In this document: piece by piece, positions 19,852-25,514 of the stretch
Numbering within the stretch: the stretch's first letter is position 1
How the letters are laid out: each line of letters begins with the position of its first letter
NCBI GenBank assembly: GCA_002734085.1
Contig: NVXV01000006.1
Coordinates: 1-43,996 of the forward strand
Direction of reading: 5' to 3'
DNA length: 43,996 nucleotides
Origin: Fluviicola sp.
GTDB lineage: Bacteria; Bacteroidota; Bacteroidia; Flavobacteriales_D; Crocinitomicaceae
Program-made: the position numbers and the translations under genes
Notes under the pieces: model-generated
What the model saw: the letters and a program-made list of their open reading frames with translations, nothing else
Told to the model about the DNA's origin: nothing
Databases searched by the model: none

Positions 19852-20112
19852 ATGAAAAGAATAATGTCCTCATTGATAGTATCGAGTCTTGTTCTCGTTG
19901 TGTCTGCAAGTACTAGTTTCGCTCAGCAAGTACAGGAACGAAACAAGGCTGAGCTGCACGAAACTAAAACTGAAAAAGTGCAGGTAGAAGTTAAAAGAGC
20001 TTTGCAAAAAGATGATTTACACAAAAAAAGTAAATTAAAAGCAAAACCTGTTAAAGCAAGAGCTAAAATTAATGCTAAACCTGCGCGAATTAAAATAATT
20101 AGAAAGAAATAG
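19852..20112 (+). CDS. Small Lys-rich secreted protein
   Basis: An 86-residue protein with a clear signal peptide (about 1-24, ending STSFAQ) and a mature part of about 62 residues. The mature part begins with an acidic/amphipathic helix (QERNKAELHETKTEKVQVEV) and ends in a strongly basic tail made of Lys, Ala, Pro and Arg (KAKPVKARAKINAKPARIK). There are no Cys. The tail recalls nucleic-acid-binding or polyanion-binding peptides. It follows the type IX block after a 60-base gap and has its own terminator. Unrecognised; a periplasmic or surface polybasic peptide is all I can say. Confidence 0.6.
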   Translation: MKRIMSSLIVSSLVLVVSASTSFAQQVQERNKAELHETKTEKVQVEVKRALQKDDLHKKSKLKAKPVKARAKINAKPARIKIIRKK

Positions 20113-20141: not shown

Positions 20142-20172
20142 AAGAGCTGTCATTTGGCGGCTCTTTTGTGTT
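20142..20172 (+). terminator. Terminator after the Lys-rich protein gene
   Basis: A 6-bp stem AAGAGC (20142-20147) with GCTCTT (20160-20165), extended inward by wobble and G-C pairs, is followed by TTGTGTTT. It lies 30 bases after the stop codon and separates this gene from the met operon promoter. Confidence 0.75.
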
Positions 20173-20252: not shown

Positions 20253-20290
20253 TGCCAACGTTTTCCCAATTCCGGGAATGAAATTTTATA

Positions 20291-20395
20291 AAGAATGAGG
20301 TGAGAGACTGGCTCTATGACCCTCTGGCAACCAACTTTAAGTTGTGATGTGAAAATCATAATTGGAAAACAGGTGCCAACTCCAGATTTGTTCAA
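20291..20395 (+). ncRNA. SAM-I (S-box) riboswitch
   Basis: The conserved core is unmistakable: GAGAGACTGGCTCTATGACC at 20303-20322, then CTCTGGCAACC, a variable P3 arm (20333-20365), and AGGTGCCAACTCC (20371-20383) closing the SAM pocket. P1 can be drawn between GAATGAG (20293-20299) and TTTGTTC (20387-20393) using several G-U pairs. It lies between a consensus promoter and the methionine biosynthesis operon, as expected for feedback control by S-adenosylmethionine. The downstream platform lacks a textbook terminator, because the alternative hairpin at 20388-20409 has no T-run. Control may therefore act on translation or via the small ORF that follows. Confidence 0.92.
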
Positions 20396-20409
20396 AATGT
20401 TTTGAGCAA
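20388..20409 (+). promoter_or_regulatory. Alternative hairpin overlapping riboswitch P1 (candidate expression platform)
   Basis: TTGTTCAAAA (20388-20397) pairs with TTTTGAGCAA (20400-20409), ten pairs with one G-U; the two-base gap means the innermost A-U pairs must open to form a loop. The 5' arm contains most of the 3' strand of P1, so the two structures exclude one another. No poly-T follows. The hairpin ends 19 bases before the ATG of the leader ORF. Confidence 0.55.
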
Positions 20410-20428
20410 AGAATATAAAAGATAAACA

Positions 20429-20550
20429 ATGAAGTTAGTAAGACATTCTTATTTTTCAATTGAGCACTCCGATCGAAGTGCCGACCTTTCAATTCATAAC
20501 ATTTCTCGTATTGATAACACCATGATGTGGTGTTGTCAAATGTCTTGTTG

Positions 20551-20566
<16 letters not shown>
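20429..20566 (+). CDS. 45-codon Met/Cys-rich leader peptide ORF upstream of metY
   Basis: A short ORF lies between the SAM riboswitch and metY. It begins MKLVRHSYFS, contains ADLSIHNISRIDNT (18-31), and ends M-M-W-C-C-Q-M-S and then six Cys before TAG. The last 14 codons thus hold three Met, one Trp and eight Cys. In a low-GC genome with few Cys codons this is extreme and not expected from random sequence. The arrangement (ORF in the leader of a Cys/Met pathway operon, regulatory codons at its end, pairing potential downstream) is that of an attenuation leader peptide. The N-terminal 30 residues are more complex than needed for a simple leader, so the peptide could also have its own function. 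Expression is not shown. Confidence 0.7.
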
Positions 20567-21982
<1,416 letters not shown>

Positions 21983-22043: not shown

Positions 22044-23099
22044 ATGCCAAATACAAAAACATTTTACGACTTCGAACTATCTGATGGAACAGTTCTTCCT
22101 GAGGTTAGAATCGTATATACCACTTACGGTAAATTGAATCAAAATAAAGACAACGTGATTTGGGTTTGTCACGCACTAACTGGTGACACTAATGTAAAAG
22201 ATTGGTGGAAAGGAATATTTGGTGGAAATCAAGTGTTAGATCCTCAAAAGAATTTTATTGTTTGTGCAAATGTTATTGGTTCTAGCTATGGAAGTACCAA
22301 TCCCTGGAGCTCTGAAGTGCCAGAATGGTTGAAAGGAAGACATTTCCCCCTAATTACTATCACTGATATCGTACATGGTCATCAGCTACTGGCAGAAGCT
22401 TTAGAAATTGATCAAATCCATCTTTTAATTGGACCATCACTTGGTGGACAACAAGCGTTGGAGTGGTCAGTAGAAGAACCAGAACGTATTCAGAATCTAT
22501 GTGTGATAGCTTCGAATGCAAAACATTCACCTTGGGGCATTGCCTTTAATGAATCTCAACGACTGGCAATATGGGCGGATGAATCTTTTCGGGCAAATAT
22601 GCCAGATGGAGGAAAGTATGGACTCAAAACAGCGCGATCATTAGCTTTATTAAGTTATCGTAGTTATGATGCATATAACGTCACTCAATTCGAATCAAAT
22701 GATGAAAAAAAGGAAGGGTTTTTTGCTTCTTCCTACCAAAACTATCAAGGTGAGAAATTGGTTGATCGATTCAATGCCTATGCATATTGGACACTATCGA
22801 AAGCGATGGATAGTCATAACGTAGGTCGAAATAGAGGAGGTTTGAAGAAAGCTTTACGAAAAATTAGAGCAAAAACTTTAGTTATAGGAATAAATTCTGA
22901 TGTGTTATTTCCTACTAGTGAACAAGAATTCATAGCGAATAATGTTCCACATGGGTTTTATCAAACGATATATTCAGATTATGGTCACGATGGTTTTTTA
23001 ATCGAATCAGAGAAATTGAATGAGGTTGTAAAGTCATTTTTAAATAATCAATTGCGACCACATTCATTTACAACTTTTAAAACAACAATATTAAATTAA
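22044..23099 (+). CDS. metX: Homoserine O-acetyltransferase
   Basis: A 351-residue alpha/beta-hydrolase acyltransferase that activates homoserine, with acetyl-CoA as the expected donor, for direct sulfhydrylation. The catalytic triad is visible: Ser132 in IGPSLGGQQALEW, Asp286 in INSDVLFP and His315 in YGHDGFL. NVIGSSYGSTNPWS (77-90) is a hallmark near the substrate tunnel. Acetyl versus succinyl specificity cannot be settled by eye, but pairing with a MetY-type enzyme favours acetyl. AAGGA is placed for ribosome binding ahead of the ATG. The next gene begins 6 bases after its stop. Confidence 0.93.
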   Translation: MPNTKTFYDFELSDGTVLPEVRIVYTTYGKLNQNKDNVIWVCHALTGDTNVKDWWKGIFGGNQVLDPQKNFIVCANVIGSSYGSTNPWSSEVPEWLKGRHFPLITITDIVHGHQLLAEALEIDQIHLLIGPSLGGQQALEWSVEEPERIQNLCVIASNAKHSPWGIAFNESQRLAIWADESFRANMPDGGKYGLKTARSLALLSYRSYDAYNVTQFESNDEKKEGFFASSYQNYQGEKLVDRFNAYAYWTLSKAMDSHNVGRNRGGLKKALRKIRAKTLVIGINSDVLFPTSEQEFIANNVPHGFYQTIYSDYGHDGFLIESEKLNEVVKSFLNNQLRPHSFTTFKTTILN

Positions 23100-23105
23100 A
23101 ACAAA

Positions 23106-24341
23106 ATGAGTAAAAAATTAAATATAGGACTTTTCGGTTTTGGATGTGTTGGAGAAGGGCTTTACGAAGTCTTGAATAAATCCAACTTATTAAACGCTGA
23201 AATTAAATCAATCGTTGTAAAAACGAAGAACAAAAAACGCACATTGGATGAGAGCTATTTCTCATATGATTCAAATGTAATTTTAGAAGATCCGGAAATC
23301 AATACCGTTGTAGAACTTATAGATGATGCTGAAGCAGCTTATATAATTGTAAAGAAAGCGTTTGAGAAAGGAAAGAATGTAGTTTCTGCAAATAAAAAGT
23401 TGATCGCAGAACATTTGGATGAATTAATTAGTATTGCTAAGGGGAAGAATTTATCTTTTCTCTATGAAGCATCGGTGTGTGCAAGTATTCCGATAATTAG
23501 AAATTTAGAAGAATATTACAACAATGATTCTTTGTCTGGTATTCAAGGTATTTGCAACGGAACAACAAATTATATTTTAACGCAAACTAACTATGGTAAA
23601 GATTATAAAACAGCATTGAAAGAAGCGCAAAACCTGGGCTATGCAGAATCAGATCCAACATTAGATGTTGATGGATTTGATTCTAAATACAAGTTGCAAA
23701 TTCTCATCAAACATGCATTTGGTATTTCAACTTCACCAGAGGATATTTTTAATTATGGCGTTCGATACGTAACAAAAGAAAATGTAAACTATGCGCTTGA
23801 GAAGAATTATCATATTAAACTTATTTCTCATGCTGTGAAATTAGCAGACAAGGTCTTTGGTTTTGTTGCGCCACATTTTATTAAGGCTGATCATCCAGTG
23901 TATGCTGTAGAAAATGAATTCAATGCTGTGATAGTCGAAGCTTTGTTTACAGACCGTCAATTATTTGTAGGGAAAGGCGCTGGAAGTCATCCCACAGCTA
24001 GTGCCGTTTTATCCGATATAAGTGCACTTCAATATAATTACCAGTATGAGTATAAGAAGGCAGAATCAGCAAAAGAGCTTTACTTTTCTAATGATTTTGC
24101 TATAAAGATATACTTAGGTTCTAAAAATGAAATAAAATTAAAGACATTTGATTTTCATGAAAAAGATGAGATATTCCAAAGCCGTGAGTACAATTATATA
24201 ACCGGATGGATTTCGTTTTCCGAACTTTTAAAGCTTGATTTTAATAAAGAAGAGGATTTATTTTTTGCTGTGTTGCCTGAGCCTTTTAAATCAAGTGAGT
24301 ATTTCAAGAGATCAGAAAAAGAAGAATTGTTATTTGCTTAA
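23106..24341 (+). CDS. hom: Homoserine dehydrogenase (monofunctional)
   Basis: A 411-residue NAD(P)-dependent dehydrogenase that reduces aspartate semialdehyde to homoserine. The Rossmann motif GLFGFGCVGEGLYEVL is at residues 8-23. The conserved substrate/NAD region includes SANKKLI (94-100), CNGTTNYIL (148-156) and YAESDPTLDVDGFDSKYKL (about 178-196), with the acid residues and Lys expected for catalysis. There is no fused aspartokinase domain. The C-terminal 100 residues after about 310 do not show an obvious ACT-domain signature. This enzyme feeds metX directly within the same operon, so the operon makes its own homoserine rather than drawing only on a thr operon. Confidence 0.93.
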   Translation: MSKKLNIGLFGFGCVGEGLYEVLNKSNLLNAEIKSIVVKTKNKKRTLDESYFSYDSNVILEDPEINTVVELIDDAEAAYIIVKKAFEKGKNVVSANKKLIAEHLDELISIAKGKNLSFLYEASVCASIPIIRNLEEYYNNDSLSGIQGICNGTTNYILTQTNYGKDYKTALKEAQNLGYAESDPTLDVDGFDSKYKLQILIKHAFGISTSPEDIFNYGVRYVTKENVNYALEKNYHIKLISHAVKLADKVFGFVAPHFIKADHPVYAVENEFNAVIVEALFTDRQLFVGKGAGSHPTASAVLSDISALQYNYQYEYKKAESAKELYFSNDFAIKIYLGSKNEIKLKTFDFHEKDEIFQSREYNYITGWISFSELLKLDFNKEEDLFFAVLPEPFKSSEYFKRSEKEELLFA

Positions 24342-24350
24342 AATTGAATT

Positions 24351-25514
24351 ATGAGAAAAGAAACAGTTGCTATTCGAACACAATCAAAGAGAAGTCACTT
24401 TAAAGAACATTCGGGACCAATTTACATGACAAGTAGTTATGCTTTTGAGGATGCTGAAGAAATGCGTGCCCTGTTCTCTGAAGAGAGAGAAGGTAATATT
24501 TACTCGCGATACTCCAACCCTAATACATCTGAGTTTGTTGAGAAAATGGTTCTTTTGGAAGGGGCGGAAGATGGTTGGGCTACGGCTTCAGGAATGGCGG
24601 CTATTTTTTCCACTTTTGGTGCTTTATTGGAGAAAGGAGATCATATTGTTTCTTGTCGTTCCGTTTTTGGTAGTACACATAAGTTACTTACAGAAATACT
24701 TCCCAAGTTCGGTATAAAAAACACCTATGTTGATTTTGATGATTATGAAGGGTTTCAAAAGAAAGTGAATGAAAATACCAAAATGATATACCTGGAAACA
24801 CCATCAAATCCTGGACTTGATATTATAGACTTGTCTCGAGTGTCAAAAATTTGTAAATCGAAAGGTATTTTGCTTGTAGTAGATAATTGTTTTGCTACAC
24901 CTATTATTCAGCAACCGATTAGACATGGAGCTGATATAGTTATTCATTCCGCAACCAAATACATTGATGGACAAGGAAGAAGTCTAGGAGGTGTAATTCT
25001 TGGTACGTCAAGTTTAATTCAAAAAATCCAAGCTTTTGCAAGGCATACAGGGCCTTGTTTAAGTCCATTTAATGCGTGGCTTTTATCAAAATCCCTGGAA
25101 ACACTTGATGTTAGATTAGAAAGGCATTGTAAAAACGCCTTAGTTGTAGCAAGGTGGTTAGAAACAAAGAGTGAAGTAAATTGGGTAAAGTATCCGTTTT
25201 TAGAGTCCCATCCACAGTATGAATTAGCTAAAAAGCAAATGTCTCAAGGAGGGGGAATCATTACATTTGAAATAAAAGGAGGTATTAAAAAAGGTAAGCA
25301 ATTTTTAGATCAGCTAAAAATGTTTTCACTTACGGCAAACCTAGGGGACACGCGTTCAATTGCAACTCATCCTGCTAGTACCACCCATTCAAAACTATCT
25401 AAAGAGGATCGGTTAGCAGTTGGAATTACAGATGGTTTGATAAGGTTATCTATTGGGTTGGAGCATACTGAAGATATTGTAATAGATTTAAATAAGGCAT
25501 TCTCAAAAACGTAA
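24351..25514 (+). CDS. Second homoserine-ester sulfhydrylase / trans-sulfuration enzyme (MetZ-like)
   Basis: A 387-residue PLP enzyme of the same superfamily as the metY product but of the shorter, MetB/MetZ type. The PLP lysine is K203 in HSATKYIDGQGR. The DGQGR extension, and ETPSNPGLDIIDL (149-161) followed by VDNCFATPIIQQP (177-189), look more like O-succinylhomoserine sulfhydrylase (MetZ) than classical cystathionine gamma-synthase, but MetB or MetC activity cannot be excluded. YSRYSNPNTSEFVEKMVLLE (51-70) supplies the neighbouring-subunit cofactor contacts. It is the last gene of the met operon, 9 bases after hom. Two sulfhydrylases in one operon is notable. Confidence 0.85.
   Translation: MRKETVAIRTQSKRSHFKEHSGPIYMTSSYAFEDAEEMRALFSEEREGNIYSRYSNPNTSEFVEKMVLLEGAEDGWATASGMAAIFSTFGALLEKGDHIVSCRSVFGSTHKLLTEILPKFGIKNTYVDFDDYEGFQKKVNENTKMIYLETPSNPGLDIIDLSRVSKICKSKGILLVVDNCFATPIIQQPIRHGADIVIHSATKYIDGQGRSLGGVILGTSSLIQKIQAFARHTGPCLSPFNAWLLSKSLETLDVRLERHCKNALVVARWLETKSEVNWVKYPFLESHPQYELAKKQMSQGGGIITFEIKGGIKKGKQFLDQLKMFSLTANLGDTRSIATHPASTTHSKLSKEDRLAVGITDGLIRLSIGLEHTEDIVIDLNKAFSKT

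Follow-up and report, generated by a model that had tools for sequence, protein, structure and literature searches.

Short open reading frames (ORFs) that end in a run of cysteine codons lie behind SAM-I riboswitches, mostly ahead of metY or metX, and this arrangement is real and widespread in Bacteroidota. With some confidence we take the two elements to form a two-input RNA regulator, in which the SAM-I aptamer would gate a Cys-tRNA-sensing leader ahead of metY or metX; a single homocysteine mRNA of these bacteria would then probably read both SAM level and cysteine supply.

The window, a stretch of 43,996 nucleotides from a Fluviicola sp. contig, holds the following features at this locus:

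20283-20421, + strand: SAM-I riboswitch aptamer (RF00162; 57.7 bits, gathering threshold 44.4, full model 1-108)
20414-20421, + strand: 3' strand of aptamer helix P1, pairing with 20283-20290 (Rfam structure line); -15 to -8 relative to the leader ATG
20429-20566, + strand: leader ORF, 45 codons, ATG to TAG, translated as MKLVRHSYFSIEHSDRSADLSIHNISRIDNTMMWCCQMSCCCCCC*
20511-20539, + strand: 13-bp hairpin within the ORF, over the IDNTMMWCCQ codons, terminator-like by consensus scan
20522-20563, + strand: putative sensor tail MMWCCQMSCCCCCC, the last 14 residues of the leader ORF, with 3 Met, 1 Trp and 8 Cys codons, the final six being Cys only
20545-20592, + strand: hairpin H1, predicted by folding, Cys codons paired with a post-stop segment (CAGUAGGAACAA); z -2.17 for the 110-nt stretch
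20600-20619, + strand: hairpin H3, predicted by folding, CGGACGC-AUUCC-GCGAUCCG, 3' of the stop
20663-21982, + strand: metY, O-acetylhomoserine/O-acetylserine sulfhydrylase (TIGR01326, 651.6 bits)
22044-23099, + strand: metX-like homoserine O-acetyltransferase (best NCBIfam match TIGR01392, 328.6 bits, under its cut-off of 500)
23106-24341, + strand: homoserine dehydrogenase, hom (PF00742; NF004976, 329.6 bits, cut-off 205)
24351-25514, + strand: second Cys/Met-metabolism PLP enzyme, nearest to O-succinylhomoserine sulfhydrylase (PF01053; NF006003, 521 bits, cut-off 522)

Translation, RF00162 and TIGR01326 thus agree with a reading of this DNA from its letters alone (hereafter the sequence-only reading), which had placed a 45-codon frame with a Met/Cys tail between a SAM riboswitch and metY. 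The aptamer ends 7 nt before the leader ATG, and 96 nt separate the leader stop from metY; the ATG lies 146 nt 3' of the first aptamer base, and the ORF is not leaderless if the aptamer is co-transcribed with it. The leader peptide had no match in NCBIfam or Pfam, and Rfam gave no match at 20400-20680 up to an E-value of 1. Upstream, a terminator-like hairpin with a T-rich tail lies at 20142-20165, after the preceding ORF and ahead of the aptamer, and positions 19852-20112 hold an 86-residue, Lys/Ala-rich ORF with a start that by eye resembles a signal peptide (best Pfam match E 0.19).

Recurrence of the leader in Bacteroidota

Across 150 genomes of the family, a search by peptide similarity found only weak relatives apart from the window itself, none better than E 0.008, since the body, which makes up most of the peptide, diverges. 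Relatives were found instead by position behind an aptamer together with metY synteny. Within the family, metY was detected at E-values up to 1e-100 in 21 of 240 genomes; 13 of these 21 loci, the window included, have a Cys-run ORF behind a SAM-I aptamer, six carry neither (L085-L090), and two (L091 and L092) have no riboswitch but a pair of short Met- and Cys-rich ORFs in tandem. Across the phylum, metY was found at E-values up to 1e-150 in 215 of 395 genomes, and the 29 best-scoring loci besides the window, a sample chosen without regard to Cys runs, were examined. The SAM-I core motif was present in 21 of the 29; an ORF with at least three Cys in its last 15 residues followed in 15 of those 21 (dinucleotide shuffles expect 0.14), and one with at least five in 12 (0.00 expected), the Cys tail being absent from the remaining six. 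The arrangement is not due to chance, and short ORFs ending in Cys or Met codons behind SAM-I riboswitches, for which the sequence-only reading had proposed such a search, are recurrent in both the family and the wider sample.

A pattern scan of named genomes (aptamer core, ATG at set distances, three Cys codons) returned at least 120 loci; a Cys-run-tailed ORF was present in 93 of 120 (62 of 80 plus 31 of 40), a count which indicates spread and not frequency, since the loci had been pre-selected by the Cys-codon pattern. Genome titles were displayed for 80 of the 120, and all 62 titled loci with a Cys leader belong to Bacteroidota, whereas the 12 loci with titles from other phyla all lacked one. 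The titled hosts include Pedobacter, Mucilaginibacter, Pontibacter, Hymenobacter, Chryseolinea, Crocinitomicaceae, Saprospiraceae and others; the titled genera are ones that we take, from general knowledge, to belong to Bacteroidota, apart from two less familiar ones, for which this was checked.

A less strict rule gave 119 distinct leader ORFs, the window's among them, from 123 of 162 sources, and SAM-I scored above the gathering threshold at all 38 leader loci submitted to Rfam. The gene after the leader is metY for 83 of the 119 ORFs (79 by pattern, 4 by eye) and metX for 16 (3 by pattern, 13 by eye); it is another gene for 16 and was not reached for 4. Of ten of the 16 other targets put to Pfam, two matched PAPS reductase (cysH) and one sulfite reductase, while seven further domains were each seen once.

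As a control, 41 SAM-I loci were taken from searches of the window's own genome, its genus and its family, 30 of them being the best-scoring of a longer list. A Cys leader was present in two of the 41, the two that precede metY; none was found in the remaining 39 examined, 37 of which by eye precede a metH-like start.

Variant leaders were seen at several loci. L091 and L092 (reverse strand, about 1170-1470) show a divergent metY with an apparent double Met/Cys attenuator and no SAM riboswitch; the tandem ORFs of L091 read MMCCMM and then MCCCKNTMCM, and at both loci each ORF is followed, by eye, by a hairpin and U-tract. Two further metY leaders are without a riboswitch, L235 (reverse strand, about 1191-1319), in which the ORF reads MMQMCMMMCCC, and L238 (about 1249-1362), in which it reads MMQMCMMMCCAC; these ORFs are Met-richer where the SAM sensor is missing. 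At L106, L110, L147, L151 and L157, where the spacer exceeds 380 nt, a similar ORF of about 75-80 residues was noticed by eye between the Cys leader and metX.

The leader start and helix P1

According to passages of PMC6847099, mRNAs of Bacteroidota are without Shine-Dalgarno sites, and in Flavobacterium johnsoniae adenines at -3, -6, -12 and -13 promote initiation, low structure near the start going with efficient initiation. The distance from the Rfam aptamer end to the leader ATG was 5-13 nt in 33 of the 37 loci measured (leader loci from the pattern scan were partly chosen by ATG distance, those of the family and phylum samples were not), and in two of the four exceptions, L073 and L080, a second in-frame Met would restore a gap of this size. 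Among the 119 leaders, A occupies position -12 in 83% and position -11 in 69%, and the A-rich stretch upstream of the leader ATG coincides with the 3' strand of P1. SAM binding stabilises P1 in SAM-I riboswitches. We reasoned that, because the ATG follows P1 by 5-13 nt, the 3' strand of P1 overlaps the A-rich element used in place of a Shine-Dalgarno sequence, and that SAM should therefore hide the initiation region of the leader, an outcome to which we give about an even chance.

Gating of the leader by SAM is thus plausible. The broader proposal, that the leader peptide is the expression platform of the SAM riboswitch, with P1 acting as a lid over a Shine-Dalgarno-free ribosome site and a hierarchical SAM/Cys gate operating across the homocysteine genes of Bacteroidota, could equally well prove right or wrong. 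The sequence-only reading had inferred two stacked sensors on one transcript; the finding of a conserved, selected Cys leader behind SAM-I and before homocysteine genes agrees with this in part, but since the leader begins right after P1, the two would seem to be coupled in series and not merely stacked.

Alternatively, the two sensors may be independent, the leader reading Cys-tRNA and the riboswitch acting separately, for instance by long-range folding with the spacer and not via leader translation. A fold of the whole 380-nt leader does show long-range pairs involving the 3' side of P1, and some metY leaders (L091, L092, L235 and L238, all with no Rfam match) keep Met/Cys ORFs without a SAM riboswitch, so that such a leader can stand alone. 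We nonetheless regard independence as rather unlikely: the roughly 7 nt between aptamer and ATG leave no room for the usual S-box terminator or sequestering stem, and the aptamer-to-ATG spacing is conserved, yet absent from the other SAM-I loci of the family, where none of the 39 examined has an ATG 4-16 nt after P1.

The cysteine tail and the RNA folds behind it

The last ten residues of the 119 leaders consist of 57.5% Cys and 11% Met, against 1.8% and 2.3%, respectively, in the leader body. Met occurs in 93 of the 119 tails and Trp in six; in 116 the last Cys is found no further than two codons from the stop, and the longest stretch comprises nine consecutive Cys. Of the 114 ORFs that contain four or more Cys codons, 112 use both TGT and TGC. 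Selection was assessed, on protein-guided alignments, in two genus-level groups of 11 leaders each: in the tail, pN/pS was 0.39 for the Pedobacter-like and 0.20 for the Mucilaginibacter-like group, compared to 0.64 and 0.75 in the body, while shifted frames gave 0.88-1.26. Since the tail values are low and those of shifted frames near 1, it is the encoded peptide that selection preserves in the tail, and the test for purifying selection put forward in the sequence-only reading comes out in favor of the leader. The body is weakly kept within the two groups and differs between genera, and the suggestion that the N-terminal 30 residues might be conserved separately is thereby not borne out.

Ribosome-mediated attenuators of the trp/his type place a short ORF containing a run of cognate codons ahead of biosynthetic genes, and such an ORF is present here; attenuation by Cys-tRNA is the likely mechanism. 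Because Cys dominates the tail over Met, the leader would be mainly a Cys sensor: the ORF had been read as sensing the charging of Cys- and Met-tRNA, and the conserved, selected tail agrees with such a role, which from its composition is narrowed mainly to Cys.

That the peptide works after its synthesis, for example as a Cys-rich small protein binding metal or serving in redox chemistry, is very improbable; up to nine consecutive Cys could bind metal, but the body varies from genus to genus and is under weak constraint in the two groups analyzed, and the 119 leader ORFs sit in cis immediately behind the aptamer, though these were collected by that criterion. An origin of the Cys run in a (TGY)n repeat or in RNA structure, with no translated sensor involved, is scarcely credible. 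TGY repeats could slip, and the Cys codons lie in hairpins in several clades; against this, TGT and TGC are mixed in nearly all runs, Met is found in most tails, the stop comes directly after the run, the tail shows the low pN/pS given above while shifted frames stay close to 1, and the targets are mostly sulphur-related.

Returning to the two-input regulator, the spacer, alone or with the tail, is more strongly folded than expected: mean z-scores against shuffles were -1.58 for the spacer and -1.93 for tail plus spacer, compared to +0.05 for the ORF body. In the six of the 13 family leaders that were picked because they could be aligned, the last Cys codons and the stop pair with a downstream segment, with 83% of cells paired versus 33-52% in slid controls, and 4 of 11 pairs are changed on both sides, a count that uses a structure derived from the same alignment. 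The hairpin after the leader has five pairs changed on both sides in the 11 Pedobacter-like leaders, again for a structure derived from the alignment itself; the hairpin holding the Cys codons has none in these 11 leaders, nor has its counterpart in the 16 of 21 Mucilaginibacter-like leaders aligned. No single consensus fold was obtained for the 13 family leaders, and folds are therefore claimed per clade only.

A general switch between tail-spacer and spacer-only pairing found no support in a test on 117 leaders, six or more crossing bases occurring in 75% of leaders versus 68% of shuffles and the re-pairing value being 0.40 versus 0.42 in shuffles. A universal U-tract terminator likewise found no support: terminator-like hairpins with a U-tract turned up in no more than 32 of the 114 spacers, against an expectation of 13.3 from mononucleotide shuffles, the stretch scanned taking in the last 30 nt of the ORF. 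The scan called no terminator-like site in the window spacer; H3 was not called, whereas the in-ORF hairpin at 20511-20539 was. C outnumbers G in 108 of the 119 spacers, a bias that would fit Rho but is no proof of it. GGGCCC occurs in 10 of 12 family spacers (L073-L084), mostly in the loop of the post-leader hairpin, and is absent from the window spacer.

We infer translation of the leader, stalling, gating by SAM and a downstream on/off step to be combined as follows. With SAM bound, the A-rich upstream part of the leader initiation region would be hidden and the leader left untranslated, and the RNA would adopt its default (off) hairpins. At low SAM the leader would be translated, and its C-terminal Cys codons, with some Met, would measure charged tRNA-Cys through the progress of the ribosome; scarce Cys-tRNA would cause ribosomes to stall on the Cys run, opening the Cys-codon hairpin and allowing metY or metX to be expressed. 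The downstream step may be an intrinsic terminator, Rho or mRNA decay.

Known relatives and physiological setting

Both halves of the arrangement have known counterparts. In mycobacteria, polycysteine-encoding leaderless short ORFs are, going by the title of Canestrari 2020 (cited in PMC13236596), cysteine-responsive attenuators of operonic genes; like the window leader they are short ORFs with a Cys run, but they are leaderless, whereas the Bacteroidota ORF sits inside a leader behind a SAM-I aptamer and before metY or metX. Actinobacterial cys/cbs operons have Cys-run leader peptides which, as excerpted from PMC1262725, resemble those described here in their Cys-codon runs near the stop and apparently in missing conserved terminator hairpins, and differ in phylum and genes and in that no riboswitch is reported there alongside. 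The uORFC-8-2 of Rhodobacterales, upstream of cysS, similarly has Cys codons in a hairpin and is a presumed attenuator; it holds only two tandem Cys codons and has a U run after the last stem, and the relevant passage of PMC8632094 reports no riboswitch. In the SAM-I Xcc riboswitch of Xanthomonas, a single SAM-I leader also reads SAM together with tRNA charging state, but its platform binds uncharged initiator tRNA directly (PMC7270179, in part), whereas the Bacteroidota leader would read charged tRNA-Cys via the ribosome.

T-boxes, too, bind tRNA directly. Rfam matched none in the window at the gathering threshold, nor at 20400-20680 with E-values up to 1. In this the window is unlike the contiguous T-box and SAM riboswitches of Bacillota, which by an extract from PMC12452182 are alike in placing SAM and tRNA sensors in a single leader. 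In general terms, a portion of PMC9723704 gives clues that leader peptides attenuate amino-acid operons in a flavobacterium, and the term 'leader peptide' is not mentioned in the excerpts of PMC3766115. Among the matches listed from the open-access literature, none reported a Cys leader behind a SAM riboswitch; each part is of a known kind, and their combination has probably not been described before.

Homocysteine is the branch point to methionine and SAM and, given cystathionine beta-synthase, to cysteine. About 24 kb beyond metY, the same contig carries a cystathionine beta-synthase-like gene (489 bits, cut-off 510); together with metY this gene means that homocysteine can feed methionine and SAM and probably cysteine, and joint control by SAM and Cys-tRNA would therefore be sensible. 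A leader that reads both ends of the homocysteine branch would be a compact two-input controller. If correct, the proposal would add a new type of output for SAM-I riboswitches, the switching on and off of a translated leader; it would place poly-Cys amino-acid attenuation in many lineages of a phylum without Shine-Dalgarno initiation, and would give a role to a short ORF absent from the protein-family libraries searched.

The genome of the window also contains three PAPS-reductase-domain matches. At other loci, SAM-I riboswitches with almost pure Cys-run leaders were observed ahead of cysH (L095 and L202) and ahead of sulfite reductase (L166 by Pfam, and L199 by its similar start and length).
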